From Opitutia bacterium ISCC 52 (GTDB lineage Bacteria; Verrucomicrobiota; Verrucomicrobiia; Opitutales; UBA2995): a DNA stretch of 64,000 nucleotides. This document shows, one piece after another, positions 9,552-48,822 of this stretch (positions within the stretch are counted from its first letter, which is position 1; each line of letters begins with the position of its first letter). The DNA lies in contig CP076040.1 of NCBI GenBank assembly GCA_014529675.2, forward strand, positions 2,189,894-2,253,893, written 5' to 3'. Made by a program: the position numbers and the translations under genes. The notes under the pieces are model-generated. The model was given only the letters and a program-made list of their open reading frames with translations. It searched no databases and was not told where the DNA came from.

Positions 9552-9562
9552 AAGGTCAGTAA

Positions 9563-9817: not shown

Positions 9818-9886
9818 TGTAGGAGGTAGCTCGCCGCCGAATCGAAAGTCCAACGACGTAAAATCGGCAGCAAGCTACCTCCTACA
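9818..9886. repeat. Palindromic REP-like element between DUF3303 remnants
   Basis: Arms 9818-9840 (TGTAGGAGGTAGCTCGCCGC...) and 9864-9886 pair over 23 positions with two mismatches. Its outer edge provides the stop codon of the upstream gene fragment. Confidence 0.88.
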
Positions 9887-9950: not shown

Positions 9951-10186
9951 ACCTTCGACGTGCCTTGTTAATTAGTGGTTCATACGGAGTCCTGATGTCG
10001 GCATTGACTGACGAATGGTAAGGGCGCGCACTTCTGCGCATAACCGCGACTAGGAGGAAGGAACATCCGGCATGTCGGCCCGAGGGTGAGTGCACACCGA
10101 CAAATAATTGAGGTCACACCTTCAAGCAGCCAATAAAAGAAAAAGTAATAACACTCTGTATGCGCTCATACGTTAGGGAACGCTAA
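9951..10186. other. Intergenic stretch, nothing recognised
   Basis: Non-coding leader of the DUF3303 remnants and downstream end of the large dehydrogenase gene. I see no convincing gene, terminator or conserved RNA in it. The overlapping long frames here lack coding character. Confidence 0.4.
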
Positions 10187-33236: not shown

Positions 33237-34016
33237 CTATCTGTTTACGCACTTACACTGTTTCTCCAACTCAACGGCAAAAGCTTTACAACAAACCTCC
33301 ATCCAATGCTTCCCTTTCTCAGCTGTTCCTTGGGTGGCGTCGCCCATGACACCTGATTTGGACACATCACTGGAGACCCAAGCGAAGGTAGCCGGGGCGT
33401 CTTCCGGAAGAAGTTCCCCGGAATCATCAATGTGGGCCGGGTATTCGCATACGGCTTTAGACATATCGACTGACTCAGGCCATATATCGAGGAGCCAGGA
33501 TGTTTCGACTTCGCCGGCATGGAAGCCGTAGGTTGCTTCCTGTTCAGAGAGATCCATTTCGAATTTGGGCTGAAGACGTTCGGCGGACATGTCCAGTGTT
33601 TCGCTGATTTCACGAAGCGTGTAGTCGATGACAGAGCTGTTTCCGCCGTGAAAGTTGGCGACGCGAAGGACTTTGAAACCCCAGGAGGAGAGTTGCCGTG
33701 CAATGGCAAAGAGCTGAAGCCGTAAGGTTTTTTTAGAAATGGCGATGGTTCCAGGAAAGCCAGAGTGTTCGTTGCTTTTTCCAAAGGTAATGGTTGGGCC
33801 GACCAGTAGTTGAATCTCGTCCGGAAGTAAGGCAAAGGATCTTTCAAGAAAGGTTTCGGCCAAGAGAGTATCAACGGCAACAGGCAAATGAGGTCCGTGT
33901 TGCTCAATAGAACCCGTACCAATGATAACCGGAATGGACTCCTTCTTGGGTAGCGTTTCAATTTGAGACCGACTCATAGCCGGCAGGTAGCGATTTCGAA
34001 AGCTTGGATAACTCAT
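33237..34016 (-). CDS. Creatininase-family amidohydrolase
   Basis: 259-residue cytoplasmic metal-dependent hydrolase of the creatininase family. The metal-binding blocks are intact: GSIEQHGPHLPVAVDT, SNEHSGFPGT, VANFHGGN and FHAGEVETS. The family opens cyclic amides and related C-N bonds (creatinine, formamidopyrimidines, mycofactocin precursor). Its start overlaps the stop of a degenerate paralogue (TAATG), so the two are translated together and may form one oligomer. Neighbouring amidohydrolases and NMT1-type transport suggest an N-containing cyclic substrate. Confidence 0.9.
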   Translation of the reverse strand: MSYPSFRNRYLPAMSRSQIETLPKKESIPVIIGTGSIEQHGPHLPVAVDTLLAETFLERSFALLPDEIQLLVGPTITFGKSNEHSGFPGTIAISKKTLRLQLFAIARQLSSWGFKVLRVANFHGGNSSVIDYTLREISETLDMSAERLQPKFEMDLSEQEATYGFHAGEVETSWLLDIWPESVDMSKAVCEYPAHIDDSGELLPEDAPATFAWVSSDVSKSGVMGDATQGTAEKGKHWMEVCCKAFAVELEKQCKCVNR

Positions 34017-34612
34017 TAAGCATCTCCTTTCTGCTGCGGAATTTTTCCGTCATTGGCCAAAGCGGGTTTGGCCCCCACTTCTATCAACAACGAAGCAAGC
34101 CGTTTTGCACCTTGCTCCAGAAAACCATCCACTTGTTGAACTGAAAGATCTATACCGAGCCCTGAAAGATGAATGCAAAAGGTCTGCATCCCCAGCTCTA
34201 TACGCAGGTCACGAGCCGTGGCATCGAGCAGATCCTCGTTCCAGGGACTTGAGTTGTAAAAGACCACTTTGCGAAACCCACTCGCCTTTATACTCAGTAC
34301 TATTTCAGCGATGGCCTCATACACCTCATCAGGCTCCATCGTGAAAAACGAAGATTGAATAGAGCCGGTCACATATCGTTGAGGAGGAAGAATCAAGTGG
34401 GGCATGGTCGAATGCAACGACTGACTGGCATGCATAAGCATGCTCATCGACACCTGCTCTTCCTGATCCAATGGCAAACCGTCTCCCAAATCTGAGAAAC
34501 CAATAATGGGCAAGATAACCTCCACCTTATCCTTTTCGGGTATAGAAGCAAAGTCGGGCCACTTCAATCGAGGCCAGAATGTATCCTGAAATGCATTACA
34601 TAACTGCGACAT
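34016..34612 (-). CDS. Degenerate creatininase-like protein
   Basis: 198 residues. The middle and end follow the creatininase fold: EIVLSIKASGFRKVVFYNSS, then PWNEDLLDATARDLRIELGM, aligning by eye with FFNGHGGNIGILHAVTRDIR of the homologue at 47506-48306. However the EQHG block is replaced (IIGFSDLGDGLPLDQEEQV), and NGHGGN reads NSSPWN, so the metal ligands are absent and the C-terminal HAGE block is missing. It is probably a non-catalytic partner or chaperone-like subunit of the active enzyme encoded next (one-base TAATG overlap). Loss of function by decay is possible, but the frame is open and coding-like throughout. Confidence 0.68.
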   Translation of the reverse strand: MSQLCNAFQDTFWPRLKWPDFASIPEKDKVEVILPIIGFSDLGDGLPLDQEEQVSMSMLMHASQSLHSTMPHLILPPQRYVTGSIQSSFFTMEPDEVYEAIAEIVLSIKASGFRKVVFYNSSPWNEDLLDATARDLRIELGMQTFCIHLSGLGIDLSVQQVDGFLEQGAKRLASLLIEVGAKPALANDGKIPQQKGDA

Positions 34613-34686
34613 AATTATTTAACATCCTATCGCTAGCATGAATGGAGATTCTCGACAATGTCCTAGTTTGTAGCATTCTCTCATAC

Positions 34687-35505
34687 ATGCGTGTCAACAT
34701 CCTTGCCTTCACCGCAACATCTATAATAGCGATCTTTCTAAGCGGCTGCGGCAAACTCAAAGCTCCTTTGAGCTCCACACTCACAATGACGGTCGTGGAA
34801 AATACAGGAAAGATCAGCAACGAAATCAGCAGTGACCAAATCGCCAATCTTCCTAAGTCGACGAAACGGTTAAGCTTCGAAGCCAATGGAGAAGAAAAAG
34901 AAACTACTATCGTATACCTGAAAGACGTTTTAGATAAGTTTCAACCCATAGGTGACAACGACCTTCTTCTGGCAAATTGCTCCGACAAGTATCAATCCAT
35001 ATTCACCCTTGAAGATATTGAACATGCTCGTCCCTACTTTGTGCTGGAAGTCGAAGGCCAAGCCTTAAATGAATGGCTGTCCAAAATCGGTCATCCGCAA
35101 TGGGGGCCCAACATCATCAACATTGAGAATGCCGAAGGTTTTCTTGATCCTTCACATAAAAATCCATGGGGACTCGCGGAGCTGGTTGTCGTAAGCCGAC
35201 CAAAGGCCCTCGCTGGCTGGGCGGATCACGAAATGAACGAATCGGCAGGGCGTGGCCTTGATCTATACCTGGACAGTTGTGTAAGTTGTCACGATACCCT
35301 GAACGGGATCGTCGGAGGGAAGAAATCTACGCGACCCTTAAACCTGCTAGCCATCTTCGCTGTCAGCAACGAACCCTACTTTCGAGGAATGATGACGGAT
35401 CCTCAAAAGACAAATCCCCTGGCCCAGAGCATGCCCAGCTATGCCCATTGGTCGGAAGATAATGTGAAAGATCTGATTGCGTTCCTGAAGTCGACGGTGA
35501 AATAG
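34687..35505 (+). CDS. Cytochrome c lipoprotein related to the SBP-fused cytochrome
   Basis: 272 residues from the ATG at 34687, chosen because it puts a lipobox (FLSGC, Cys21) at the right distance; an upstream start at 34642 would not. A middle domain (LLANCSDKYQSIFTLED, PYFVLEVEGQALNEW, GHPQWGPNIINIENAEGFLDP) precedes a class I cytochrome c with haem site CVSCH (198-202) and axial Met in QSMPSY. The middle domain vaguely recalls sulfite-oxidase-like molybdopterin domains, including its Cys, but I cannot confirm this. Both domains recur at the C-terminus of the ABC binding protein at 41898-43664. It stands between the creatininase pair (divergent) and amidohydrolase operon (convergent). Confidence 0.85.
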   Translation: MRVNILAFTATSIIAIFLSGCGKLKAPLSSTLTMTVVENTGKISNEISSDQIANLPKSTKRLSFEANGEEKETTIVYLKDVLDKFQPIGDNDLLLANCSDKYQSIFTLEDIEHARPYFVLEVEGQALNEWLSKIGHPQWGPNIINIENAEGFLDPSHKNPWGLAELVVVSRPKALAGWADHEMNESAGRGLDLYLDSCVSCHDTLNGIVGGKKSTRPLNLLAIFAVSNEPYFRGMMTDPQKTNPLAQSMPSYAHWSEDNVKDLIAFLKSTVK

Positions 35506-35519: not shown

Positions 35520-36740
35520 TCAAATACCCGTGTAAGGTTTTTTGTATAGAGCACGGCCTTTGAGAAAAGTGCCCAATACATCCTCTGCACCCAGTCGAGT
35601 GACGATGCTGGCCAGCAAATGGTGGGTATGGCGCAAACGCGTTTTCGAAAAATCGAGCACAACAAAATCAGCGGGCAGGCCTTCTTCGAGATAGCCATGG
35701 CGGTCACCCCCAAAAGCTTTTCCCATATTGACCGTCGCCAGCTTCAAGATATCCCGCGGATCGGGTCTAACCGCATCTCCGTATTGGCTTTTGGCTACCT
35801 TGTAGGTAAAATCCAATTCGGCTAGCATGTTTGAATTATTGAGCATCGCGTTGTCGGTGCCGAGAAGCAAGTTGGCACCTTTATCGAGGAGGCTTCTAAT
35901 AGGTGGTAACGGCAAGCCAAGGTTGGCATTGGCCCGCGGATTTAAGACACCAGTGATACCTGCATCGACTAACATTTGCTGCTCATCGTCTTCGGAAACC
36001 GTCATGTGAACCACAATGTTGGGTTCGTACAGTTCAATGGCCCGAATAAGGTCCCCACGAAATACCATTTTAAAACTCAAGTCGCGGTAGCCCCAATTTT
36101 CCAAACAATGAATCGCGCGAAATTTACCCAGCTCCTTCGTGCGCGCTTTGACATACTCCCAGGCCGGATCGGTCATGTCATTCATAGTGCTCTCGCTGAA
36201 TCCATGAGCAACTTTGAGCATTGCATCCAGCTCGGTTTTGTAAGCGTCACTCAATTCAGCCTTGTTTTCCAACAGCGTTGCCGCATCAAAAGGCGAAGTT
36301 TCGAACTGCGAGAGGATGACGGAATCGAGACCCACTTGCTCGGAAGCTGCTTTGAGTATCTCCGCTCCCTTCACCCCTTCCTCACGAAAGTCCAGGTGGC
36401 CGATGGTCCCGGTGCGTACCATAAATGCGAGTTGGGTGGCGATACGAGGCAACTGCTCTTCCGGACTGAGCTTCGCTAGCTCTTTGTACTTATAACCATC
36501 GGGACGGAAGAATCCTTCCTCTAGAGTCAAACCGGTGGTGCCATCGAGTAAGCAGGAGTCACCCATATGGGTGTGTGAATTGTAAAGCCCCGGGATGATG
36601 ACCAGCCCGTCCCCCTTGATACGGTTATAGGGTTCACGTCGATCAATAGCCTCGATCGTATCACCGCTTACTTTGAAACGATCGCAAAGAAAAGGCTCCA
36701 GATCAGGCCCCCAGAGGACCATGCAATTTTTAAATTCCAT
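35520..36740 (-). CDS. Amidohydrolase, TRZ/ATZ-like
   Basis: 406-residue cytoplasmic amidohydrolase-superfamily TIM barrel. The metal HxH is in NSHTHMGD (about residue 55); later ligands are His in FRAIHCLEN, His in IVVHMTVSEDD and Asp in LGTDNAMLN. The C-terminal ADFVVLDF strand closes the small beta-sandwich. The set fits mononuclear deaminases and chlorohydrolases of the ATZ/TRZ, guanine and adenosine type. It is the last gene of a minus-strand trio with a DUF2165 membrane protein (8 bp upstream) and a cytosine-deaminase-like enzyme. A role in deaminating a heterocyclic intermediate is inferred. Confidence 0.87.
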   Translation of the reverse strand: MEFKNCMVLWGPDLEPFLCDRFKVSGDTIEAIDRREPYNRIKGDGLVIIPGLYNSHTHMGDSCLLDGTTGLTLEEGFFRPDGYKYKELAKLSPEEQLPRIATQLAFMVRTGTIGHLDFREEGVKGAEILKAASEQVGLDSVILSQFETSPFDAATLLENKAELSDAYKTELDAMLKVAHGFSESTMNDMTDPAWEYVKARTKELGKFRAIHCLENWGYRDLSFKMVFRGDLIRAIELYEPNIVVHMTVSEDDEQQMLVDAGITGVLNPRANANLGLPLPPIRSLLDKGANLLLGTDNAMLNNSNMLAELDFTYKVAKSQYGDAVRPDPRDILKLATVNMGKAFGGDRHGYLEEGLPADFVVLDFSKTRLRHTHHLLASIVTRLGAEDVLGTFLKGRALYKKPYTGI

Positions 36741-36748: not shown

Positions 36749-37249
36749 CTAGCTATCGCCCAACTTGTCGTCCTTCATAGCAATAAAAATGAGCGATATT
36801 CCCATGATGACAAACATCCTATGGGCCGCACCCTGGCCGTTGAAGGTTTTTGATTGCCACATTAGAAACCATTCGGCGCCCACAGACAAAAAGGCAATGT
36901 ACCACTGCAGCATACTCAAGGTGAGTCCGGCAAATACCAGATTCTTGGCCAGGTTAAAATCTTTGGCTCCGGCGACACGGCTGCACCACAACTTCCAAGT
37001 GCCCATAGCCAAAAGCACCATCGCTGCCGATTCCCAAAGAATGATGGACGCATAAAGAAGGTGATAGATAACTGGCGAGTTGATCGCTCGCCACTGCCCC
37101 TTATTCCCTTCGAACGTGTCCTTCATCCCGAGGACGTTCTCTACAAAGGCGTAATTCGAACCGTAATCGGTCAGGTTATTGAATACGACCAGAAAAAGGA
37201 AAAGAAACGACGCAAAGGCCAAGGCGATTTTGCAATATCGAAGAACCAT
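36749..37249 (-). CDS. DUF2165 small integral membrane protein
   Basis: 166 residues with four hydrophobic segments (IALAFASFLFLFLVVFNNLTD, VIYHLLYASIILWESAAMVLL, NLVFAGLTLSMLQWYIAFLSV, MFVIMGISLIFIAM). The NNLTDYGSNYAFVENVLGMKDTF loop is typical of DUF2165. No enzymatic motif. Its position between two amidohydrolases in one operon makes a role in transport or membrane anchoring possible, but this is only inferred from location. Confidence 0.82.
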   Translation of the reverse strand: MVLRYCKIALAFASFLFLFLVVFNNLTDYGSNYAFVENVLGMKDTFEGNKGQWRAINSPVIYHLLYASIILWESAAMVLLAMGTWKLWCSRVAGAKDFNLAKNLVFAGLTLSMLQWYIAFLSVGAEWFLMWQSKTFNGQGAAHRMFVIMGISLIFIAMKDDKLGDS

Positions 37250-37329: not shown

Positions 37330-38610
37330 TTAAATGACTTCGGAATAGTCGGGTATGTTCATTTCCTCCAGTTTCGAATCCCGAAACAGTTGCCGTCTAA
37401 CCAGCGGCCTACTCAGTAATTGACTCATGGTCGAGGTATGGAAAATCGAAAAGGCTGCTGGAGCACCAGGGACGATCTGGCCATAACCAGACTCAGATAA
37501 TCCCATCAGATCAGCTGGAGCACGGGTAACCACCTCAATCGATTCCTGCAAACGTCGATCCAAATGACCGATCCGCAGGGATTCGCGGTAGACCTCTAAC
37601 ATGTCCAAGTCTCCATAGGCATAAAATGAATCCCTGACGTTGTCGCTCGCGCAGGCGAATGGCACACCCCGATTCATAAACTCATGCGCTAAAGTGATAC
37701 CGCGCCAGTAGGGAGTTTGAATGTCATCCTCCTCTACCCTGCGATCCTGCAGATAAAGATTACACATGGGCAGTGAAACCACTTTAATGCCCGACTCCTT
37801 CACTAGTTCCAGAATCTCCAGTTGTTCTTTCAAAGGCTTGACCGAGAGACTGCAGCAGTGCCCACAAACCACCGTATTTGGAAATTCATTACGCAAAACC
37901 GCACGAGCAACCGCTTCCAACACATAGGTATCTTCCCCGTTGTTTTCATCAACGTGTAAATCCAGTCCTACTGACCTTTCAACCGCTAGTGCCATCAATC
38001 GGTCCAGTTGAGCGTCAAGGTCAGGATTCATGAGCGGCATGCCTCCAAGCGCAATGGCGCCAAACTCCACAGGCAGATCAGCCAGGGTGTCTCCAGAAGA
38101 TTCACTATACTCCGGTATCGAAGCCAGACTCACCAGTTGAAGCTCCAGACGTCCCGCCCATTCCTCGCGTAATCGACTCAATGCCTCGTAGCTTCGCCGC
38201 GCCCATGGCAGCCCTGTATCTACATGACTGCGGAGCGCAACCGTGCCATAAGCATAAGCACATCGAAGCGCATAGGAAGCCCGACGGTAAACATCATCAG
38301 CTGTCCAATTCACTTTATCTGCCTCAATGTTGTGCAATGCTTCATTGAAGGTGCCCGATTTATTGGGCGCTCTTTCCCAGCTGTGTGCTTTATCCAAGTG
38401 GGTATGCGCATCGAGAAAGCCAGGTAGCAGAATCGTATGATTCAATTCCAAGTCAGCTTGCCCCTGGCCTGCTTCCACGGAACGCACCAGTCCGTTTTCA
38501 ATTCGCACGACACAATCCGTCAAACCTTCCCAGTCTGCTTCCCCAGTATAACCACTGTCCAACAGTCGCCGAGGAACTCGTGCAGAAATGCTCTTTATCG
38601 AGTCAGTCAT
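37330..38610 (-). CDS. Cytosine deaminase-like amidohydrolase
   Basis: 426-residue enzyme of the CodA/AtzC branch of amidohydrolases. Landmarks in order: HTHLDKAHSW (HxH), ALRSHVDTGLPW, LDLHVDENNGED, VVCGHCCSLS and the catalytic Asp in ASDNVRDSFYAYGDLDM. This matches cytosine deaminase and isopropylammelide hydrolase relatives, which hydrolyse amino groups from pyrimidine or triazine rings. First gene of the trio with DUF2165 and a second amidohydrolase. Divergent from the FAD oxidase/ABC importer operon across a 268-bp gap that probably holds both promoters; I could not pick out a riboswitch or operator in it. Confidence 0.88.
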   Translation of the reverse strand: MTDSIKSISARVPRRLLDSGYTGEADWEGLTDCVVRIENGLVRSVEAGQGQADLELNHTILLPGFLDAHTHLDKAHSWERAPNKSGTFNEALHNIEADKVNWTADDVYRRASYALRCAYAYGTVALRSHVDTGLPWARRSYEALSRLREEWAGRLELQLVSLASIPEYSESSGDTLADLPVEFGAIALGGMPLMNPDLDAQLDRLMALAVERSVGLDLHVDENNGEDTYVLEAVARAVLRNEFPNTVVCGHCCSLSVKPLKEQLEILELVKESGIKVVSLPMCNLYLQDRRVEEDDIQTPYWRGITLAHEFMNRGVPFACASDNVRDSFYAYGDLDMLEVYRESLRIGHLDRRLQESIEVVTRAPADLMGLSESGYGQIVPGAPAAFSIFHTSTMSQLLSRPLVRRQLFRDSKLEEMNIPDYSEVI

Positions 38611-38878: not shown

Positions 38879-40285
38879 ATGGTAATAGAAATTTCCGATG
38901 AAATCATTGAAGCATTTAAAGACATTTGCGGAGTCGATTACATAGAAACTGAGCCCGAAAAAGTTGATAAGCTTTCGAAGGATTTCTATTGGTATTCTCC
39001 GATCCTTAAACCTCTCCTGGAGGACAAGAAGGCTGGAGTGGCCGTTATACCGCAGGATTTGGAAGAGCTGAAGGCCACGGTGGCTATATGCTGCCGTAAT
39101 CGACTCCCAATAACTATCCGAGGAGGAGGAACTGGAAACTACGGTCAGTGCGTACCGCTCCACGGTGGCGTGGTCATCGATCTGTCCGCCCTGGATCGAA
39201 TCATTTCTTTGGACGATGGTGTGGTCCGTGCGGAACCCGGTGCCCGGCTGGTGACAATTGAAACCAAGGCTAGAGAAGTAGGTTATGAGTTGCGCTGCAT
39301 GCCATCCACGTTCGTCAAAAGCACCCTGGGAGGTTTCTTTTGCGGAGGATCAGGTGGAGTCGGTTCCATTACCTGGGGAGGCATTGTCCAGGGAGACAAT
39401 GTAAAATCCGTGACCATTCTTAGCGCAGAAGAAGAGCCCCAGCTAGTGAAGCTAGAGGGTCCGGATGCGATCAAAGCCCTCCACACTTATGGCACCAATG
39501 GAATCATGGTGGAGATAGAAATGCGACTCGCGCCCAAGGTCGATTACCAGCAACTGATATTTTGCCACAAGGACTGGAATACCATTTTCGACTGGACGGA
39601 CGACTTTGCTCGTCAGGATCATTTCAAACGTCGACTGATCACCGGCTTTGAAAACCCTATTCCTCAATACTTCAAAGGCTTGGTTAAGCATTTTGAAGAG
39701 GAAGAGCATGTCACCTTCATCCTGATCTCAACGGACCAAAGCGATGAGGCGAAAGCGCTCGCTGAGGCTGCCGGATTGCGTTTGGCCTACGACCGTCCAC
39801 TCGCCGATCCACCGCGACCACCATATATTACCGATTATACATGGAACCATACCACCTTGTGGGCGCTGCGAGCAGACCCCACCATCACTTACCTCCAGGC
39901 AGGCTTTGGCACTGACTACAAAGCAAAGATGGAAATGCTCTGGGAAAAGTTTCCCGGCGAGATCCTCATGCACATTGAATGGACCGCCGGTAATTCCAAA
40001 ATGAACCAGGAAATCCACCGACCCCTTACCGGTGAAAATGTCCTCGTCGGAGGGATACCACTGGTACTTTACAAGAGCGACGAGCGTCTCCAGGAGATCA
40101 TGGATTACTGCGAAGAAATAGGGGTTTTTATTGCCAACCCACATACCTACGTTTTGGAAGAAGGCGGGATGCATCCGGACATCGAAGAAAAGCGGGCATT
40201 CAAGGACAAGATGGATCCCTTAACTCTGCTGAATCCGGGAAAGATGAAAACCTACCCGAAAAACCCTTTCGCTCAAACAGCCTAA
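38879..40285 (+). CDS. FAD-linked oxidase (GlcD/VAO-type)
   Basis: 468-residue soluble flavoprotein. The FAD-binding PCMH domain is clear: VAVIPQDLEELKATVAIC, the pyrophosphate loop RGGGTGNYGQCVPLHGG, ALDRIISLDDGVVRAEPGARL and GGFFCGGSGGVGSITWGG. The C-terminus ends DPLTLLNPGKMKTYP as in glycolate/lactate-type oxidases. No signal peptide, so cytoplasmic. It oxidises a hydroxy acid, amine or ring substrate that cannot be named. It begins the plus-strand operon FAD oxidase - ABC ATPase - permease - binding protein/cytochrome with 6-bp or overlapping joints. Hence it likely acts on the imported compound. Confidence 0.88.
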   Translation: MVIEISDEIIEAFKDICGVDYIETEPEKVDKLSKDFYWYSPILKPLLEDKKAGVAVIPQDLEELKATVAICCRNRLPITIRGGGTGNYGQCVPLHGGVVIDLSALDRIISLDDGVVRAEPGARLVTIETKAREVGYELRCMPSTFVKSTLGGFFCGGSGGVGSITWGGIVQGDNVKSVTILSAEEEPQLVKLEGPDAIKALHTYGTNGIMVEIEMRLAPKVDYQQLIFCHKDWNTIFDWTDDFARQDHFKRRLITGFENPIPQYFKGLVKHFEEEEHVTFILISTDQSDEAKALAEAAGLRLAYDRPLADPPRPPYITDYTWNHTTLWALRADPTITYLQAGFGTDYKAKMEMLWEKFPGEILMHIEWTAGNSKMNQEIHRPLTGENVLVGGIPLVLYKSDERLQEIMDYCEEIGVFIANPHTYVLEEGGMHPDIEEKRAFKDKMDPLTLLNPGKMKTYPKNPFAQTA

Positions 40286-40291: not shown

Positions 40292-41065
40292 ATGTCGGAA
40301 CCACAGCCACCGATTGTCGTATTTGATAAACTCTGCCAACGCTACGGCAACGGCCCGCTGGTACTCGAGGATCTCGACCTTCAGGTTGAGAAAGGAGAAT
40401 TCATCAGCCTGGTTGGCCCCAGTGGCTGCGGCAAATCTACCATCCTAAAGACCATCAGTGGACTCACCCCGCATGCCTCAGGTACTATAAGCATCGATGG
40501 GATGCAGCCCAAGGAAGCACGGGAAGAAACCTTTTTCATTTTCCAGGATGCAAATTTGCTGCCCTGGCTCCGCGTGCAGAACAATGTGGAATTGCCGCTT
40601 CGAATCAGTGGCGACTCAAAGGAGCGCCGTGCAAGGAAAGCCAATAAAATGATAGAGTTGGTCGGTTTAAAAGACGCGACTCGCCAATTTCCCTGGCAAC
40701 TATCGGGTGGCATGCGAATGCGCGTCTCCATCGCCAGAGCCCTGACCGTCTCACCCAGTATCCTGCTTTTAGATGAGCCCTTCGGCGCACTCGATGAAAT
40801 GACTCGAGATCGCTTGAACGAAGATTTGTTGCAGATCCGGGATGAAGATCCATTCACAGCGTTCTTCGTGACGCACTCAGTGGCAGAAGCGGTTTTTCTA
40901 TCCACTCGCATCGTCGTCTTGTCAGCCAACCCGGGTCGCATTGCTGAAATCATCGAAGTACCCTTTGATTTTCCTCGAACAGCGGAGCTGCGTGAGCAAC
41001 CCGAATACCTGCAACTACTCGCTAAAGCGACCCACGCACTACGATCTGTGGAGGAAGAAGCATGA
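40292..41065 (+). CDS. ABC importer ATPase (NitT/TauT/ThiZ type)
   Basis: 257-residue nucleotide-binding subunit. Walker A GPSGCGKST, Q-loop FQDANLLPW, signature LSGGMRMRVSIARAL, Walker B ILLLDEPFGALDE and switch FFVTHSVAEAVFLS are all intact. The family energises uptake of nitrate, taurine, aliphatic sulfonates or pyrimidine precursors. It overlaps the permease gene by 4 bp. With two NMT1/THI5-type binding proteins in the region, a heterocyclic ligand is more likely than taurine. Confidence 0.95.
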   Translation: MSEPQPPIVVFDKLCQRYGNGPLVLEDLDLQVEKGEFISLVGPSGCGKSTILKTISGLTPHASGTISIDGMQPKEAREETFFIFQDANLLPWLRVQNNVELPLRISGDSKERRARKANKMIELVGLKDATRQFPWQLSGGMRMRVSIARALTVSPSILLLDEPFGALDEMTRDRLNEDLLQIRDEDPFTAFFVTHSVAEAVFLSTRIVVLSANPGRIAEIIEVPFDFPRTAELREQPEYLQLLAKATHALRSVEEEA

Positions 41066-41901
41066 ATTTTAAGAAATACAGCCCTTTTCTGATGCCGATC
41101 CTTTCAACGATCGTCATCATCACACTGTGGTACACCATTGGATCACTGATTGTAGATAGCAATATGAAGACGGAGGGCTACACCAAGGAGGATGCTGAAG
41201 CCATCCGTCGCATTCAAATGCCCTATCCCACCGAAATATGGCAGGCCATGGTGGATGAGAGAGCCGACCTGATCACGGCAGCCAAGAACACTTTCGTATC
41301 GGCTGCGATCGGCTTCGTAGCCGCCATCACAATCGGGTATATTATCGCTATGATTTTTGCAGCGTCATCGCTGGTCAAACATGCCACTTACCCCTGGGTT
41401 CTGGTTCTGCAAATGACCCCGGTCGTTATCCTGGCACCCATCATTGCGATCTGGTTAAAGGAAGGGAGAAGCGCGATTACACTGGTTACGTTCCTGATTG
41501 GGTTCTTCCCAATTGTGGCCAACTCCACCCAAGGTCTCATTTCGACCGACAGAAATTTACTCGATCTGTTCACGGTGTGCAATGCCAGCAAGGTTCAGGA
41601 GATATTTCTACTTCGGGTCCCCTTTTCCATGCCTTACTTTCTAACCGGAATGAAGATTGCCGGCACTTTGGCGCCCATCGGAGCTATCACGGGAGACATT
41701 TTTGTAGGCACCTCGGCGAGTGGTGGGGCCGGTCTCGGATTCATGACCATCGTCTACAATTCCAATGTGAAGATTCCTGCCCTTTTCGCTACGGCAACCA
41801 TCGCCTGTACCATGGGTTTCGTATTTGTTGGCTCGGTTAATCTCATTCATTGGCTTGCCTTGAGAAACTGGCACGATTCCATGATCCACAAACAAAAATG
41901 A
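41062..41901 (+). CDS. ABC importer permease (BPD family)
   Basis: 279-residue inner-membrane protein with about six transmembrane segments (LMPILSTIVIITLWYTIGSLI, AAIGFVAAITIGYIIAMIFAA, TYPWVLVLQMTPVVILAPIIAI, ALFATATIACTMGFVFVGSV). The cytoplasmic coupling loop near residues 155-190 contains NASKVQEIFLLRVPFSMPYF, as in SsuC/TauC/ThiX permeases. A charged periplasmic stretch follows the first segment. The start overlaps the ATPase by 4 bp and the stop overlaps the binding-protein start by 4 bp. Confidence 0.93.
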   Translation: MNFKKYSPFLMPILSTIVIITLWYTIGSLIVDSNMKTEGYTKEDAEAIRRIQMPYPTEIWQAMVDERADLITAAKNTFVSAAIGFVAAITIGYIIAMIFAASSLVKHATYPWVLVLQMTPVVILAPIIAIWLKEGRSAITLVTFLIGFFPIVANSTQGLISTDRNLLDLFTVCNASKVQEIFLLRVPFSMPYFLTGMKIAGTLAPIGAITGDIFVGTSASGGAGLGFMTIVYNSNVKIPALFATATIACTMGFVFVGSVNLIHWLALRNWHDSMIHKQK

Positions 41902-43664
41902 TCGCTTCGCTTCGCACCTGCTTCCTTTCTATCACCCTGACCATTCTGAGTATCCTGCTCGTCGCCTGTGGCGGAGGTAATTCATCTCAAGAGTCAGAGA
42001 ACGGTCTGACAAAGATTGTTCTGCAAACTGACTGGTACGCTCAACCGGAGCACGGTGGATTCTACCAGGCCTTGGCCCAAGGATACTATGAAGAGGTGGG
42101 ATTGGATGTGGAAATCATTCCTGGCGGCCCAAACGCATTGCCAGTCCAAAAAGTAGCACAAGGAGTAGCAGACTTTGCCATCGGGAGAAGCGACGAAGTT
42201 ATCATCGCTACCTCTAGACAAGTTCCTGTCGCAATCGCGGGCGCCCTTATGCAGCACGATCCGCAAGCTGTCCTCTTCCACAAAGAATCGGGCATCACAA
42301 AATTTGAGGATTTAGATGGTAAAACCATCATGGCAAATCCCGGCTCCGCTTTCATTCGCATCATGGAGCAAACCTATGATATCGACGTAAACATCATGCC
42401 ACTAGACTATGGCATGAACCGATTTCTTGCAGATAAAAATTTCATACAGCAGTGCTTTATAACCAACGAGCCTTACTACGTCGAAAAGGAAGGCGCTGAC
42501 GCAGGCACCCTACTCCTCTCCGATTCCGGATTTTCTCCCTATCGTGTTTGGTTCACCTCACGCGGATTCGCCCGCGCCAAGCCTGATATTATTAAAGCAT
42601 TTACCGAAGCCTCCATTCGGGGCTGGAATGACTACCTGACGGGTGATCGTACCGACGCAAATGCCATGATTTCCGCCAACAATCCTCAACAAACTCCGGA
42701 GTTAATGGATTACGTGGCCAACTCCATGATCGAAAACAAACTGGTTTCCGGTCGTCCGGAAAACGGCGAAAAGACAGGCCTAGTAACCACCGAGCGAATA
42801 CAGAAGCAGATCGAACAATTAACAGAGATCGAAATGCTGGAGTCTGAAGTTAAAGTGGAAGACGTTCTTATCGAAGGCACCATCGATCTCAGCCAGGCAA
42901 CACCGAGCTATATAAAACCTCAGCATTGGCCCAACCTCGTCCTGCATACCAGCAACGGCATCCAACAGAGCCAACAAGTCATCAAGCCTGCACAGATGGC
43001 AGAGATAGCCGTTGAAGCTCGCCGTAAGTTCTTCGAAACTGCCGATGAGCATTACGATATGCAAATCGTGTATCTCGCAGACTTTATAGAAACATTCGTT
43101 TCCGACCCCGAGCTCACATTCTGGATCACCAATTACGGGGATAAATACCAATCCAATTTTACGCCTGATATACTCAACACCGTTAAACCGTATTTCATTC
43201 TGACCATCGATGGTCAATCAATCGTAGATTGGCTTGATTCCATTGATCACCCTGAGTGGGGGCCGCATGTTCTCAATATTGAGTCGACCGAAGGACTGCT
43301 CGATCCGCCTCACAAAAATCCCTGGGGAGTCTCCAAAATACATGCCGTGACAAAAGAGCTGGCCTTCTCAGGTCTGGGGAGCAGTGAACTAGGCGAATCA
43401 GCTGAAAAGGGCCAATTGATTTTTGCGAACAGCTGTGCCAGTTGCCACCAAACGGGAAACGGACTGCTTGGAGGTTCAGTTTCATCCAGAACCATGCCTA
43501 TGTTGGCAGCCTTTGCCATAAACGCGGAAGATTATTTCAGAAAGATGCTTATTTCGCCGAAAGAGACGAATCCTCTGGCCGAAAAGATGCCAAGCTACGC
43601 ACATTACCAGGAGGAGCATATTGTTAGTCTGATCGATTTCCTGAAGACTTTGGCAATCAACTAG
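41898..43664 (+). CDS. NMT1/THI5-type binding lipoprotein fused to cytochrome c
   Basis: 588 residues from the ATG at 41898, selected because it forms an ATGA overlap with the permease and places a lipobox (LLVAC, Cys24). Residues about 35-340 are a type 2 periplasmic binding protein of the NMT1/THI5-like group (TDWYAQPEHGGFYQALAQGY, DLDGKTIMANPGSAF, DKNFIQQCFITNEPYY). A helical linker leads to a domain like that of the lipoprotein at 34687 (YGDKYQSNFTPD, HPEWGPHVLNIESTEGLLDP, HKNPWG). A cytochrome c follows with haem CASCH (513-517) and Met in KMPSY. The Cys of the paralogue's ANCSDKYQS is Tyr here. A substrate-binding protein with its own haem is very unusual and suggests that ligand capture is coupled to electron transfer. 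Confidence 0.9.
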   Translation: MIASLRTCFLSITLTILSILLVACGGGNSSQESENGLTKIVLQTDWYAQPEHGGFYQALAQGYYEEVGLDVEIIPGGPNALPVQKVAQGVADFAIGRSDEVIIATSRQVPVAIAGALMQHDPQAVLFHKESGITKFEDLDGKTIMANPGSAFIRIMEQTYDIDVNIMPLDYGMNRFLADKNFIQQCFITNEPYYVEKEGADAGTLLLSDSGFSPYRVWFTSRGFARAKPDIIKAFTEASIRGWNDYLTGDRTDANAMISANNPQQTPELMDYVANSMIENKLVSGRPENGEKTGLVTTERIQKQIEQLTEIEMLESEVKVEDVLIEGTIDLSQATPSYIKPQHWPNLVLHTSNGIQQSQQVIKPAQMAEIAVEARRKFFETADEHYDMQIVYLADFIETFVSDPELTFWITNYGDKYQSNFTPDILNTVKPYFILTIDGQSIVDWLDSIDHPEWGPHVLNIESTEGLLDPPHKNPWGVSKIHAVTKELAFSGLGSSELGESAEKGQLIFANSCASCHQTGNGLLGGSVSSRTMPMLAAFAINAEDYFRKMLISPKETNPLAEKMPSYAHYQEEHIVSLIDFLKTLAIN

Positions 43665-43882
43665 TTGTCGAATCACTCTTGAGCTTTAGCTCAACACAAC
43701 AGGATCCTCCCTAGGGCAGAATCATGAATTATATTTATCGTATTTATTAATCAAATACATGGATCGTTTTGGACCACTCTAAACATCAAGTTAACCTTCA
43801 AGGTTTATTACATTTGGCACATAACATGCTAACTTGTTAACAATAAAGTTCTTTGTTTGAATACAAAACACTATCAGAAGAA

Positions 43883-46447
43883 ATGAAAATGAAACTGCGA
43901 CAAGCTGCTCTTATCTACATCCTGGGAGCCTCCACCTGGCTTTCAGCTCAGGACGACGTGGATGGCCCTATCCTGGAATTGGATGAATTCATAACCGAAG
44001 AAGTAAGCCAGGAATTATCTGACTCACTAATTCCAACTGACCGGAGTGTGGGTTCCGCCTTTTTTGCCGATATGGAACTCTTGGATATTCCTCGATCAGT
44101 CCTGGTTCTCTCGCCAGAAACGATGGAGCAATTCCAGATCGAAGACTTTAATGATCTACAAAATATCGGTGCCGGTACCGAGCGATACAATTTCTATGGC
44201 ATCGCCGGACAACCGGTTCTTCGCGGGTGGCAAGGTGGCATCTACTTTAACGGTATGCTTCGTGCCTTCCAACGAAACGAAATGCCAACCTCCTTCGGAG
44301 CTCTTGAAGCAATGGAGGTCGTCAAAGGCCCTGCACCTGCACAGTTCATTCCCAGCCATGTCGGCGGTTACGTGAACATGCTCCCTAAATCTCCATTTTT
44401 CGATGAATCCAGAGGTGAATTCAAATTCGAGTTTGGATCCAACAACCATTACAATATCCAGGTCGACAAGGGAGGTCCATTCCTCGCAGGAAGCAAACCC
44501 GCTGCTTACCGCGTTTCCATTACTTCTCAAAACGCGGATACCTGGTACAATAATGTAGGAAACGATTTCAACTCGGTTTACGCATCCATCAAAATGAAAC
44601 TCTCCGAAGAAACCTACCTCTTCGCTGGTGCTGAGTATTACGAATTCAAATCAAACGAAAATGCTGCCTGGAATCGTCCTACTCAGAATCTGGTTGATAC
44701 CGGTCAATATGTAATCGGTGAACCACTCAGCCTCGTACGCACAGAAAACGGCGGATTTGCCGATAGAAACCTGCTCAGCTACAGTGCCGATTTCCGTGCT
44801 CTGGTTGTGCCTGCATCTGTCGTGGATGGCGCCAGCCTTTCTACCGACCAAATGTCTGCACTCAAAGACCTGAGCGATCCTGCAGTGCGTGCCGCAATTT
44901 ACGATGGTTTGCCAGCTGACATAGCACAAACCACTTCCGGCTATCTATATACACCAGATTACTTCCTGGCAGGTGGCCCCGTGTTCACAGAAAAAATCAG
45001 CGGCAAGCAAATCCTCGCCGACCCGAGAGACTTCGCTGATTCAGAAGACTTAATGATATTCGCCGATCTGGAGCACTTCTTCAGCGACAGCACGGTCATG
45101 ACAAACAAACTGTTTATTGAAGACATCACGACCGATAAGCTTTCTTCCTACCAATACGCATTTCGCATGGACCAGACAGTGATCGACGATCGTTTCTCAC
45201 TGACCACCACCCTGGAGCCCAGTGATTCAAGCACGGTCGTATTGGATTACGGGGTACAAGTTAGGAAAACTGAGGCGACTCAGCTGCAGGACTTCTGGGC
45301 AGAACCATTCTCACGTCGCGATATTTCCCGCGATGAGATTAGTCAAAATAGCGTTTTTCTTTCTGGTGCTCAGTTTGATCCATCTACTAACAACAACTAC
45401 TGGGGTGGCGGATTTGGGGCCGGTGGCCCAGGAGGTCACGCCGTTGAATCGGACCTTGAGCAGCATGGAGCATTTCTCTCCGCATTGTTTGACATGAATG
45501 AAGTCTTCTCGATTATCGCCAGTGCTCGTTACGACACCGTCGACATCAAAGCCAAGGTGCCTGAAGGCCCCACAGATATCGCACAGAATGTAACCGAGGA
45601 CGATGATTCCTTTTTTAACTTCAGTATCAACCCAACCATCAAGCTGGGCGAAAATGCCAGCATCTATGGCGCCTACCAAGAAGCATCTACCTATGCTCCG
45701 ACCCAAGGGGGTGCCGTATTAAGCACAGGAAACTTCGGGGATTCCGAGCTCACAGAAGTGGGTATAAAAACGTCTGCTTTCGATGGCCGATTCTACGCAA
45801 GTGTTGCCTGGTATGAATGGGAGCAAGCTGCCTTTAATGATAGAACCAATACCTCTGATCCTTACGAATCCGAAGGTATTGAATTCGAAGCCACCATCGC
45901 CGTCTCTGAGAACGTAACAATAATTGCCAGCTATGGTGATCGGGAAACAATACGTACGGCCCCTCTCGGCTTCCGTTCAATGCCTTGGAATCTCGCTGAC
46001 CCAACGGGTGCACTGAACGACGAGATCGGGCTTGCACTTGAAGGGGGCTCTTTATTGCACCAGTTCACCGATGCGTTTGGTGGATTTACTCCTGAAGGAG
46101 GCGCTCCATCCAACAACCCTGATTTGATTATGCCGGGAGCACCTGAGACGACTGCCAAGCTGTTTGTCTCTTCTAGCTTCGAGAACGGATTCGGCCTTTC
46201 AGTCGGAGGAGTTTACAGTGACAAATTCTGGGCCAGCATGGACCGCTTTATCCTGGTTCCTTCCTCGGTCGTCATCAATTCAAACATCTGGTACGATGCT
46301 GGAAGCTGGAAAGCGATGCTCAGCCTCGAGAACATCACCGGTGAAGACTACTTCATCGGAGCAGATCCGATCTTTGCAGCCAACACAGCTCTAAGTAAAG
46401 CACCGGACGAAGTCCAGGCCCGCATGACTGTGACCGTACCCTTCTGA
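43883..46447 (+). CDS. TonB-dependent outer-membrane receptor
   Basis: 854 residues from the ATG at 43883; a TTG at 43853 would add residues before a good signal peptide (MKMKLRQAALIYILGASTWLSA). A TonB-box-like stretch ELDEFIT follows, then a plug domain (IPRSVLVLSPETMEQFQIEDF, VLRGWQGGIYFNGMLR, ALEAMEVVKGPAPAQF) and a long beta-barrel ending in an aromatic residue (ARMTVTVPF). It would bring the substrate across the outer membrane for the ABC importer encoded just upstream. 218 bp separate the two genes, so it probably has its own promoter. Confidence 0.93.
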   Translation: MKMKLRQAALIYILGASTWLSAQDDVDGPILELDEFITEEVSQELSDSLIPTDRSVGSAFFADMELLDIPRSVLVLSPETMEQFQIEDFNDLQNIGAGTERYNFYGIAGQPVLRGWQGGIYFNGMLRAFQRNEMPTSFGALEAMEVVKGPAPAQFIPSHVGGYVNMLPKSPFFDESRGEFKFEFGSNNHYNIQVDKGGPFLAGSKPAAYRVSITSQNADTWYNNVGNDFNSVYASIKMKLSEETYLFAGAEYYEFKSNENAAWNRPTQNLVDTGQYVIGEPLSLVRTENGGFADRNLLSYSADFRALVVPASVVDGASLSTDQMSALKDLSDPAVRAAIYDGLPADIAQTTSGYLYTPDYFLAGGPVFTEKISGKQILADPRDFADSEDLMIFADLEHFFSDSTVMTNKLFIEDITTDKLSSYQYAFRMDQTVIDDRFSLTTTLEPSDSSTVVLDYGVQVRKTEATQLQDFWAEPFSRRDISRDEISQNSVFLSGAQFDPSTNNNYWGGGFGAGGPGGHAVESDLEQHGAFLSALFDMNEVFSIIASARYDTVDIKAKVPEGPTDIAQNVTEDDDSFFNFSINPTIKLGENASIYGAYQEASTYAPTQGGAVLSTGNFGDSELTEVGIKTSAFDGRFYASVAWYEWEQAAFNDRTNTSDPYESEGIEFEATIAVSENVTIIASYGDRETIRTAPLGFRSMPWNLADPTGALNDEIGLALEGGSLLHQFTDAFGGFTPEGGAPSNNPDLIMPGAPETTAKLFVSSSFENGFGLSVGGVYSDKFWASMDRFILVPSSVVINSNIWYDAGSWKAMLSLENITGEDYFIGADPIFAANTALSKAPDEVQARMTVTVPF

Positions 46448-46469: not shown

Positions 46470-46511
46470 AAAGGGCATGCCGGAAATAGTCCGACATGCC
46501 CTTTGCTTTTT
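46470..46511 (+). terminator. Strong hairpin with T-run after TonB receptor
   Basis: Arms 46470-46484 (AAAGGGCATGCCGGA) and 46490-46504 pair over 15 positions with one mismatch around a 5-base loop and are followed by GCTTTTTAAA. It looks like an intrinsic terminator 23 bp after the receptor stop. It also ends only 8-15 bp before the ATG of the next gene, so it may act as an attenuator or hide that gene's ribosome-binding site. Confidence 0.72.
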
Positions 46512-46518
46512 AAACACC

Positions 46519-47502
46519 ATGAACGCAAGCTCCACTCCACTACTCACTCTATGGGCAATCCTCGTATCAGGTCTTAGTTTCTCAGGATGCGGGGGCGGTG
46601 CCGACGAATCGACCAAAGATGGACGCTTTAATGTGCGGGTTCAGTTGGACTGGGTTGCAGAACCCGAACATGGTGCATTTTATACAGCTGAGGCCATGGG
46701 GTATTTCGTTGAGGAAGGCCTGAACGTAACCTTGGTTCAAGGAGGACCCAATTCACTTTCCATCAATAAGGTCGCGACCGGACAGGCTCATCTGGGCCAG
46801 GCGGACAGCACCAACGTGATCCTGGCCATTGAGGGCGGTGCTCCGGTGGTCAATGTCGCCTCCGTTTTTCAAAACGATCCCAGTGTCCTAATGATGCAAG
46901 AGGACTGTCCAGTCGAAGATTGGAAAGACCTCCAAAGCATGACGGTCATGGTTAGACCGGAATGGGCTTTCATTCCGTATTTGAAAAAGAAGTACGACAT
47001 TGAATTCGATATTGTACCCCAGAATTTTGAATTAGGGCGCCTAATGACCGACAAGAACTTTGTGCAACAAGGATTCTGCATCGCAGAGCCTTTTTTCGTA
47101 AAACAACAAGGCATAAACCTGAAGTTTCTCTACGCCTGGGATACCGGCTTCGATGCTTACACGACCCTCTTTTCCAATAAAGCATTTGCCTACTCTTATC
47201 CTGAAGAATTGAAGGCTTTTATTCGGGCATTAAAACGAGGCTACAGTTATTACATCGAAGTGGATCCTCAGCCAGCGCACGACATCATGCTGGCGATCAA
47301 CTCGAAAGCGTCGCCTGAATTCCTTGATTTTTCACGCGCGATGATCATCGACGCCGAGCTACACAAAACGGACGACACCGATTACCTCACCATTTCAAGA
47401 GATCGCTACCAAACCCAACTCGATCAGCTAACGGATCTGAAAATCATAAATGAAGTTTCCTTGACGGTCGAACAAGTCATGACTGACAAATACGTCCCAT
47501 AA
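46519..47502 (+). CDS. Second NMT1/THI5-type binding lipoprotein
   Basis: 327 residues from the ATG at 46519; this start gives a lipoprotein signal with lipobox LSFSGC, better than 46477. A single type 2 periplasmic binding domain follows: VQLDWVAEPEHGAFYTAEAM, LVQGGPNSLSINKVATGQAH, DKNFVQQGFCIAEPFFVKQQG. It aligns along its length with the binding half of the cytochrome fusion protein (DWxAxPEHGxFY, DKNFxQQxF) but has no haem domain. It may serve the same permease with a different or related ligand. It lies right behind a terminator-like hairpin, so expression could be controlled separately. Confidence 0.9.
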   Translation: MNASSTPLLTLWAILVSGLSFSGCGGGADESTKDGRFNVRVQLDWVAEPEHGAFYTAEAMGYFVEEGLNVTLVQGGPNSLSINKVATGQAHLGQADSTNVILAIEGGAPVVNVASVFQNDPSVLMMQEDCPVEDWKDLQSMTVMVRPEWAFIPYLKKKYDIEFDIVPQNFELGRLMTDKNFVQQGFCIAEPFFVKQQGINLKFLYAWDTGFDAYTTLFSNKAFAYSYPEELKAFIRALKRGYSYYIEVDPQPAHDIMLAINSKASPEFLDFSRAMIIDAELHKTDDTDYLTISRDRYQTQLDQLTDLKIINEVSLTVEQVMTDKYVP

Positions 47503-47505: not shown

Positions 47506-48306
47506 TTAGAGCCCGTCTTCAATCGGCGGCCGGGCGTATTCATACTCAACCATTTCTTTCAGGAACTTCATAGTTCCCTGCACTGAGCGCTCAAGGTAGT
47601 CGGCCGCGATGTCATCCGTCACATGAGTGGGATCGCCAAACACGCCCGTAGCAGACCAGTCTTTGGTTTTCCATTGCGCATAACCTTTGCCAACCAAACC
47701 AATTCCTGTCTCCGGATAATCAGGAAAACAAGGCTTCGCTTTGTCTTCCTTAACCAAGTCAGGAGTCAAGGCTTTGATCAGTGCCGTTTCGGTGAAATTG
47801 GCGTGAATACCAAATTGCTTTTCTCTCGGATCAACTCCCTCCGGCAACGCCGTTTCATCAAGGTAAGTTCCAGCAGATCCAAAAAAGGTAGTCATGCCGA
47901 ACTCGTCACGGATGTCGCGAGTGACCGCATGCAGGATGCCAATATTCCCTCCATGCCCATTGAAGAAACAGAGTTTGCGAAAGCCTGACTCGTGGACACT
48001 CCGGCCAATATCGAAGAGCACGTCATAAAGCGTCTTGGCTCCGATCCAGATGGTACCTGGAAAACCACGATGCTCGTTACTCTTGCTGATCGTAATCGGC
48101 GATAGACGATAGGCTGGTACATCCTCAGGCAATCGATCCATGGCACGTTCAAGCACGCCTGAACTAATGATCGTATCCGTATAAGTCGGCAAATGATGAC
48201 CGTGTTGCTCGGTCGCACCGACGGGAAGGACAGCCACGGCTTTTGATTTATCCAGAGCTTTAACCTCCGGCCAGGTCATGTGAGAAAGAAAACGTTGAAC
48301 AGCCAT
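47506..48306 (-). CDS. Creatininase-family amidohydrolase
   Basis: 266-residue cytoplasmic hydrolase with the family's metal blocks: PVGATEQHGHHLPTYTDT, SNEHRGFPGT and FFNGHGGN. The last block reads IHANFTETA where many relatives have HAGE(I/V)ET, so the local Gly-Glu is Asn-Phe while the following Glu is kept. It is convergent with the second binding protein (3 bp between stops) and divergent from the Rid-family gene. Third creatininase-like gene in the island; two seem catalytic and one does not. It probably hydrolyses a cyclic amide. Confidence 0.9.
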   Translation of the reverse strand: MAVQRFLSHMTWPEVKALDKSKAVAVLPVGATEQHGHHLPTYTDTIISSGVLERAMDRLPEDVPAYRLSPITISKSNEHRGFPGTIWIGAKTLYDVLFDIGRSVHESGFRKLCFFNGHGGNIGILHAVTRDIRDEFGMTTFFGSAGTYLDETALPEGVDPREKQFGIHANFTETALIKALTPDLVKEDKAKPCFPDYPETGIGLVGKGYAQWKTKDWSATGVFGDPTHVTDDIAADYLERSVQGTMKFLKEMVEYEYARPPIEDGL

Positions 48307-48432
48307 AAGATGAGTTCAGCTATTTTCGTACCGATAGACCAGCTTCAAACAAACTTCTCCAATTGAACCAATGCCCTTGCCGAGCAAATCCGTTTTGGCA
48401 TCCTCAATGCTAGGATGACCAGCGACAAAACT

Positions 48433-48822
48433 ATGTTTAAATATATCACTCCCGAAGAGATCCCTCCCCCATTCGCCACTTATAGCCACGGCGTTGAGGT
48501 ACCGGCAAACGCACGATTGTTGTTCGTATCTGGACAACTCAGCGTTTCTTTGACCGAGCCCATCCCTGAAGACACCGAGTCGCAGGCAGGTCTGATTTTT
48601 AAGAATATCGGTTCGATCCTTGAATCCGCCGGTATGAGCTTGAACAACCTGGTTCGCATCAATGCCTACGTCACTGGTCGAGAACATCTTCAACCGTACA
48701 TGAAAGTAAGGGACGAATTATTCTCTCAACCGGCTCCCGCATCGACCTTAATGATCGTGTCTGGGTTTGCCCGCGAAGCATTTACCGTCGAGATAGAGGT
48801 GATCGCTGCGGCAGATTCGTGA
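48433..48822 (+). CDS. Rid (YjgF/YER057c/UK114) family protein
   Basis: 129 residues from the ATG at 48433; an in-frame ATG at 48415 is possible and neither has a clear ribosome-binding site. Family landmarks: YSHGVEVPANARLLFVSGQL, GLIFKNIGSILESAGMS, VRINAYVTGREHLQPYMKVRDELF and VEIEVIAA. True RidA imine deaminases have an Arg in the P-A-R-S/T block; here it reads PAPASTLM, without that Arg. So it belongs to another Rid subgroup, members of which occur in catabolic clusters for N-compounds. A role in handling a reactive enamine/imine or carbamate intermediate is inferred. Divergent from the creatininase gene. Confidence 0.87.
   Translation: MFKYITPEEIPPPFATYSHGVEVPANARLLFVSGQLSVSLTEPIPEDTESQAGLIFKNIGSILESAGMSLNNLVRINAYVTGREHLQPYMKVRDELFSQPAPASTLMIVSGFAREAFTVEIEVIAAADS

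Follow-up and report, generated by a model that had tools for sequence, protein, structure and literature searches.

The locus and the fused gene

The stretch analysed here, referred to below as the window, comprises 64,000 nucleotides of the genome of Opitutia bacterium ISCC 52 (Verrucomicrobiota, Opitutales; contig CP076040.1, positions 2,189,894 to 2,253,893). It contains a single gene in which the binding lipoprotein of an ATP-binding cassette (ABC) importer is joined to a middle domain resembling the pterin-binding protein PruR and to a c-type cytochrome. The gene and its parts are located as follows (positions in the window, strand, basis in brackets):

41898..43664, +, fused lipoprotein gene (NMT1 binding domain, PruR-like domain and cytochrome c), 588 aa (open reading frame, Pfam, homologues)
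41898..41969, +, signal sequence and lipobox LVAC (residues 21-24) with predicted lipidated Cys24 (sequence)
42003..42887, +, NMT1/THI5-type binding domain, residues 36-330 (Pfam; VIA against ThiY, 3ix1)
42888..42962, +, linker, residues 331-355, poorly conserved and of low model confidence (full-length model, codon comparison)
42963..43367, +, PruR-like (sulfite-oxidase-fold) domain, residues 356-490 (AlphaFold, Foldseek, VIA, hhalign)
43383..43661, +, mono-haem cytochrome c domain, residues 496-588 (Pfam, motif, structure comparison)

The reading frame on the forward strand consists of 588 codons and a stop codon, with no internal stop. Within its product PF09084 (NMT1) matched residues 49-246 with 118.7 bits (cut-off 20.5) and PF00034 (Cytochrom_C) matched residues 502-585 with 24.7 bits (cut-off 21.3); the stretch between these two domains had no match in the Pfam scan. 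The motif CASCH occupies residues 513-517 (codons 43434-43448), an axial-type Met564 lies in EKMPSY (codon 43587-43589), and the cysteines of the protein are found at positions 8, 24, 186, 513 and 516, none of them in the middle domain. These data agree with an initial annotation of the same DNA, which had described one lipoprotein with an NMT1/THI5-type domain, a linker domain and a cytochrome c, encoded by the fourth gene of an importer operon: a domain search of the 588-residue protein placed both Pfam families above cut-off, and genes for a flavin adenine dinucleotide (FAD) oxidase, an ATPase and a permease precede the fusion in a tight run, with 4-base overlaps between ATPase and permease and between permease and fusion. 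The linker domain of that annotation does exist as a separate middle domain, which had been left unnamed and whose fold we describe here as PruR-like.

Spread and history of the fusion

The fusion is a real gene and not an assembly error. When 53 genomes including its own (G000) were searched, full-length homologues with 62, 51 and 43% identity were obtained from the separately assembled genomes G001, G003 and G036, the only full-length matches besides G000 itself, and among 19 loci from named genomes fused genes also occurred in JAJFLT010000340 and JAJFLU010000022 (L034 and L044), both from Opitutales bacteria. The fusion of G037 appeared as two matches inside one 597-residue frame. Since the copies in G037 and G432 appear to be those of L044 and L034, respectively, the fused genes were counted as six distinct ones, which carry three family labels and lie within Opitutales genomes. 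A missed stop between the two halves, one of the findings by which the initial annotation would have been refuted, is thus dispelled by the unbroken frame and the full-length homologues elsewhere; six distinct fused genes in separate genomes rule out a missed stop or an assembly join, and the search for the same architecture that the annotation had suggested has been productive within Opitutales. Moreover, in the comparison of the window with G001, differences at third and second codon positions were 0.61 and 0.11 in the binding domain, 0.58 and 0.27 in the middle domain, and 0.65 and 0.24 in the cytochrome domain (0.80 and 0.52 in the 25-codon linker). The large excess of third-position differences in all three domains, which is much smaller in the linker, is what would be expected if a single gene is under protein-level selection.

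The unit formed by the PruR-like domain and the cytochrome was present in 22 of the 372 genomes of the order, of which six hold a fused copy (G000, G001, G003, G036, G037 and G432), 15 hold only unfused copies, so that the fusion is not essential, and one (G052) is not judgeable, its sole unit copy running off a contig end. In G052 one contig (C35, L119) ends in a PruR-like/cytochrome frame and another (C156, L011/L045) in a binding-protein frame, probably a seventh fusion broken by assembly. A 678-aa frame of G344 was rejected as a fusion, its binding protein being encoded on the other strand. Both halves of the fusion also occur unfused in the window, the middle domain with the cytochrome at 34642-35505 and the binding protein at 46477-47502, and the fusion protein has five matches in its own genome, namely itself, the stand-alone unit and three binding proteins. 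A tree built from 26 unit sequences places all six fused rows in a group of nine (support 93/88), together with the stand-alone copy of the window, its relative from G005 and one L044 copy. This tree requires three changes between fused and unfused labels, so that either the fused and separate states have changed into each other or fusion took place repeatedly, and the placement of the window stand-alone copy inside the fused clade suggests its separation or duplication from a fused ancestor. In L034 (6218-11794) and L044 (7104-11767) three tandem binding-protein copies follow one permease, and only the last of them is fused.

The middle domain

The fold of the middle domain was examined in an AlphaFold model of the stand-alone unit, run on 11 sequences (mean predicted local distance difference test (pLDDT) 78.8, predicted template modelling score (pTM) 0.73). 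A Foldseek search of the PDB with this model returned PruR chains at ranks 1-7 (E 3.1e-7 to 1.3e-5), followed by the next match at 0.03, and the best of these, 7kom, had an E of 3.1e-7 and a template modelling score of 0.80 by target. Similar results were obtained with VIA, in which 7kom gave Z 15.1 (root-mean-square deviation (rmsd) 2.5, 129 aligned), with sulfite-oxidase-fold enzymes (Z at most 13.8) ranking below the five PruR entries and cytochromes c reaching Z 5-8 for the C-terminal part. When 15 middle domains were compared by hhalign with four PruR homologues from plasmid records, E was 2.5e-7 and the score 50.3, against a best E of 0.023 and score of 20.6 in 50 column shuffles and an E of 0.24 for the reversed alignment. 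The neighbours of these four homologues, namely GGDEF-type enzymes in two, a sensor histidine kinase in one, and a response regulator on one side with an 'ATP-binding protein' on the other in one, are as described for PruR.

According to the available part of a 2026 review, PruR is a periplasmic pterin-binding protein with a sulfite-oxidase fold lacking the molybdenum cysteine; it prefers tetrahydromonapterin, its Tyr104 and Trp160 are linked to pterin binding, and some PruR groups have Asp at position 102 (PMC13259868). Our alignment pairs Asn102, Tyr104 and Trp160 of PruR with Asp415, Tyr417 and Trp476 of the fusion, the equation of alignment columns with Agrobacterium residues 102, 104 and 160 being inferred from the Salinivibrio homologue, whose numbering and spacing are equal. 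In the 26 unit sequences Asp was found at 102 throughout (26/26), Tyr at 104 in 23 (Trp in 3), and Trp at 160 in 18 (Phe or Tyr in 5, Thr in 3). Judged from the modelled fold and these site residues, the middle domain probably binds a pterin-like ring. Because the fused middle domain has no Cys, molybdenum binding of the sulfite-oxidase kind is not expected of it, and a molybdenum enzyme was rejected on this ground. PF00174 was not among the families listed at E 1 for the 11 members of set A2, and it matched three of the four PruR homologues at E <1e-4. A divergent subfamily of the unit (L087 in G038:C22; L094, 4467-5423, in G133; L095, 15350-16324, in G266) carries D-x-W for D-x-Y and no PWG motif, suggesting that it has another ligand.

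The cytochrome and the binding domain

The CXXCH motif and the Met were kept in all 26 unit sequences, and the cytochrome part is predicted with near certainty to carry covalent haem c; in its own genome two matches for cytochrome c assembly exceeded the cut-off. The available part of one study reports that tetrahydrobiopterin reduces ferricytochrome c without an enzyme, via a trihydrobiopterin radical, to quinonoid dihydrobiopterin, and that in an anaerobic coupled assay 2 mol of cytochrome c were reduced per mol of reduced nicotinamide adenine dinucleotide phosphate (PMC2789237). A pterin site beside a haem would thus be a chemically sensible one-electron relay. As to other electron donors, the model TIGR03075 for pyrroloquinoline quinone (PQQ) alcohol dehydrogenases found five places in the own genome at 171-202 bits, below its cut-off of 480, none of them within the window; 14 control genomes likewise had none over the cut-off.

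The binding domain resembled ThiY most closely (3ix1; VIA Z 30.0, rmsd 3.5, 287 aligned), followed by a thiamin-bound protein (4nmy, Z 29.6), Thi5 (26.7), and then sulfonate, bicarbonate and PQQ binding proteins. Since the ligands of its closest solved relatives are formylaminopyrimidine or thiamin, it is reasonable to guess, but no more than that, at a flat nitrogen heterocycle as its own ligand. Riboswitches gave no clue to the ligand: the Rfam scan detected none in the window and only transfer RNAs (tRNAs) in seven related stretches, and a thiamin or purine riboswitch was rejected accordingly. Xanthine riboswitches precede NMT1-type genes elsewhere, as stated in the available part of a further source (PMC7373994); xanthine or urate is a possible ligand here, and Rfam matched no xanthine riboswitch in the window or the seven stretches. 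A single-turnover chemistry like that of Thi5 was rejected because the fusion lacks the string CCCFC, which we take to be the Thi5 motif.

Surrounding genes and related islands

The genes around the fusion are the following:

33237..34016, -, creatininase-family hydrolase (PF02633)
34016..34612, -, short creatininase-family protein, 198 aa (PF02633, 37 bits, cut-off 31.3)
34642..35505, +, stand-alone PruR-like/cytochrome c lipoprotein, 287 aa (43% identity to fusion residues 361-584)
35520..36740, -, amidohydrolase (PF01979; below the PRK07213 cut-off)
36749..37249, -, DUF2165 membrane protein (Pfam)
37330..38610, -, cytosine-deaminase-type amidohydrolase (PRK07583, 467.5 bits, cut-off 403)
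38879..40285, +, FAD_binding_4 oxidase/dehydrogenase, first gene of the run (Pfam; PDB 6v42, E 8.5e-91)
40292..41065, +, ABC ATPase (Pfam, NCBIfam)
41062..41901, +, ABC permease (Pfam, NCBIfam)
43853..46447, +, TonB-dependent outer-membrane receptor (Plug, PF07715)
46477..47502, +, second NMT1-type binding lipoprotein, unfused (Pfam, similarity search)
47506..48306, -, creatininase-family hydrolase (PF02633)
48415..48822, +, RidA-family protein (PF01042)

The FAD oxidase matches PDB 6v42/6v43, named only 'FAD/FMN-containing dehydrogenase', an entry for which the search of open-licence PMC papers gave no match, and has by eye no evident signal sequence. For the deaminase the closest solved relatives are cytosine deaminases, so that the label of pterin deaminase is unsupported; a pterin deaminase of the Arad3529 type is described in the available part of another source (PMC9513972). 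Elsewhere in the own genome (L098, C1:436001-456000) a second ABC set lies at 8207-10801, its binding protein, permease and ATPase being 46, 53 and 64% identical; no PruR-like/cytochrome unit is present in that stretch, and a tRNA gene lies about 0.9 kb away. G005 (L097) has a similar ABC set near a tRNA gene.

Each of the six distinct fused genes is preceded by genes for the ATPase and permease; in L034 and L044 additional copies of the binding protein intervene. Of the 22 unfused unit copies in the order, 17 had one or more genes of the island (those for the binding protein, TonB receptor, FAD oxidase, deaminase and creatininase-family proteins) in the stretch examined and 12 a binding protein of the same family; these counts are lower bounds, since the stretches measured 2.4 to 20 kb, apart from the 64 kb of the window. 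Two unit copies from another order of the same class (G242, G264) also adjoin such binding proteins. In 27 compared stretches, many of them chosen for holding a binding protein and two (L044, L099) taken from one contig, we found the FAD oxidase in 19, DUF2165 in 19, creatininase-family genes in 14, and 16 frames labelled as deaminase. The island of L044 has an additional cytosine/purine permease. In four Opitutae islands (L039-L042) a small protein is encoded between the importer and the stand-alone unit; the copy in L039 (11278-11835) is a Rieske protein, pointing to an oxygenase or electron-transfer step. Taken as a whole, the island looks like one for the uptake and breakdown of a nitrogen heterocycle.

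Discussion

The lipoprotein signal, the domains with their conserved residues, the order of the genes and the island, all computed here, are consistent with a binding protein that carries its own periplasmic electron-transfer module for a pterin or a close heterocycle, a reading of sequence and models to which we give slightly less than even odds. A heterocycle, most likely a pterin or close relative, would enter through the TonB receptor, and its reduced form (tetrahydro- or dihydropterin) would be bound by the PruR-like domain and pass electrons singly to the adjacent haem, which would feed them into the respiratory chain. The tethered binding domain would then capture the ring in its oxidised form and deliver it to the permease, and in the cytoplasm the deaminase or amidohydrolase, creatininase-type and FAD enzymes of the island would degrade it. 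The fusion would keep oxidation and capture in one molecule, the two functions residing on separate proteins in most relatives examined. Such oxidation followed by import may come close to an even chance if the ring is left open as a pterin or another one, and is a more tentative proposal for a pterin itself. The most far-reaching form of this reading, to which we assign a rough probability of 0.35, is worded for the pterin: the fusion may be a redox-coupled importer, the first of its kind, in which a PruR-type site and a haem c, without molybdenum, send the electrons of reduced pterins to respiration and the oxidised pterin to the ABC importer, the island serving pterin scavenging and degradation. 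The initial annotation had suggested that the ligand is oxidised or reduced while bound. The PruR-like middle domain favours a link between ligand and redox chemistry, but oxidation in the cleft of the binding protein is unsupported, that domain resembling an ordinary ligand-handing ThiY or thiamin-binding protein.

Several observations weigh against a pterin electron-transfer module on the binding protein. The attached haem, the bound pterin, the transfer of electrons to the respiratory chain and the identity of the ligand are inferred from sequence and models, and the full-length AlphaFold model of the fusion (mean pLDDT 78.3, pTM 0.58) does not fix the contacts and placement of the three domains, the binding domain having a pLDDT of about 90 and above and the middle and cytochrome parts lower values. 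The sequence similarity of the middle domain to PruR appears remote: a PruR profile found no match in the own genome, and the middle-domain profile reached PruR 7kp2 only at E 0.15, behind three HisF/TIM-barrel chains (0.002-0.007), so that the PruR assignment rests on fold and profile-profile comparison. Trp70, invariant in the four PruR homologues, is not kept (Ala in the window stand-alone copy, Trp or Phe in others), and the Lys of the HK-P-W motif is absent from five unfused rows, three of which have Trp for Tyr104 and Thr for Trp160. No DcpA/DTB regulator adjoins either window copy, the flanks being the permease and TonB receptor for one and a creatininase-family gene and amidohydrolase for the other. 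For these reasons the domain is named PruR-like and not PruR. Furthermore, a pterin-specific enzyme was not identified in the island, whose deaminase is nearest to cytosine deaminases, and the binding domain could carry a non-pterin ring. Five of the 22 unfused copies had no island gene in the stretch examined, one stretch measuring 16 kb. Finally, importer loci outside Verrucomicrobiota (L047-L050, three titled Gammaproteobacteria and one Mangrovimicrobium) had no unit in the 7.7-21 kb examined, which implies that import does not need it, and a search of 194 genomes from the order that includes L047, which offered no positive control, did not find the unit at E 1e-15.

Known systems match individual parts of the fusion. 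The initial annotation knew of no described system with such an architecture, and the three-domain fusion with a cognate ABC importer was indeed not found among the open-licence PMC matches listed for it, a weak absence. However, in XoxGJ of Methylacidiphilum the cytochrome c XoxG is fused to the periplasmic binding protein XoxJ, with the XoxF methanol dehydrogenase as electron donor (PMC8498564, available part), so that the joining of a binding-protein-like part to a cytochrome has a precedent, even within Verrucomicrobia. XoxGJ likewise combines a binding-protein-type fold and a cytochrome c in one periplasmic protein, but serves XoxF and has no third domain in the available description. In contrast, the fusion has an NMT1-type domain with cognate ATPase and permease and a PruR-like domain in between, a distinction drawn from the description of XoxJ; among the NCBIfam matches of the window, a comparison in which the XoxJ sequence itself was not included, no model was named for XoxJ or MxaJ. 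With PruR (7kom, 7kp2, 7kos, 7kou, 7rkb; PruR-DcpA/DTB signalling) the middle domain shares the fold and the site Asp/Asn102, Tyr104 and Trp160, and the fusion shares export to the cell envelope and the lack of a molybdenum-ligating Cys; it differs in its junction to a cytochrome c and an importer binding domain, and in the neighbour, Trp70 and sequence distance considered above. Likewise, the fusion has the binding-domain fold of ThiY, the thiamin-binding protein 4nmy and Thi5 but adds two domains, with no Rfam riboswitch in the window and no CCCFC string. The middle domain also has the fold of sulfite oxidase, SorA and SoxCD (VIA Z up to 13.8), yet spans about 135 residues and not a full enzyme, has no molybdenum-binding Cys in the fused copy and no PF00174 match. 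Molybdenum domains with cytochrome c partners exist among sulfite-oxidase-type enzymes.

XoxGJ also provides the precedent for an alternative that we consider unlikely but worth weighing, namely that a periplasmic dehydrogenase encoded separately supplies the cytochrome with electrons, while the PruR-like domain no longer binds a ligand and serves as a scaffold for docking. Cofactor folds commonly degenerate, and the own genome has the five places matching the PQQ alcohol dehydrogenase model below cut-off; none of these lies in the window, no periplasmic dehydrogenase was recognised among the neighbours in the Pfam scan, with the FAD oxidase lacking an evident signal sequence by eye, and the PruR site residues are kept, the Asp in 26/26. 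It is still less probable that a pterin is held permanently in the PruR-like domain as a redox cofactor, with which some other ring compound, presented by the binding domain, is oxidised. In sulfite-oxidase-fold enzymes a pterin-type cofactor takes part in electron transfer, and the kinship of the PruR-like domain with that fold, as well as the presence of binding domain, PruR-like site and haem in one chain, would suit such an arrangement; it is opposed by the unfixed domain contacts of the model (pTM 0.58), by a unit that is only untethered in 15 of the 22 genomes, and by PruR itself, which binds free reduced pterins as signals (PMC13259868, available part).

The same source describes the characterised PruR proteins as signalling proteins (PMC13259868), so that the PruR-like/cytochrome part might read a pterin or a redox state and set the activity of the importer, in agreement with the redox gating of uptake that the initial annotation had also entertained. 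We regard this as improbable, given that the genes flanking the fused and stand-alone copies of the window, the only copies considered in this respect, include no kinase or cyclic di-GMP enzyme. Least probable of all appears a neutral event that joined two adjacent genes of the island while their products continue to act independently: both halves do occur unfused in the same islands, and the window stand-alone copy sits inside the fused clade, with fusion and separation interconverting or fusion recurring, but the fusion has been kept in six distinct genes with three family labels and all three of its domains are under codon-level constraint.

The biological interest of the redox-coupled pterin importer lies in the membrane passage of pterins. 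No bacterial pterin importer was named in the titles or abstract starts among the open-licence PMC matches listed, again a weak absence, and the available part of the 2026 review states that the route of pterins across bacterial membranes is unknown and reports no evidence of pterins reacting chemically with PruR (PMC13259868). If our reading is true, a PruR-like domain wired to a haem and an importer would be a candidate for a pterin uptake route in these bacteria, periplasmic pterin redox chemistry would proceed without molybdenum, and a binding protein could perform chemistry that is coupled to the capture of its ligand.

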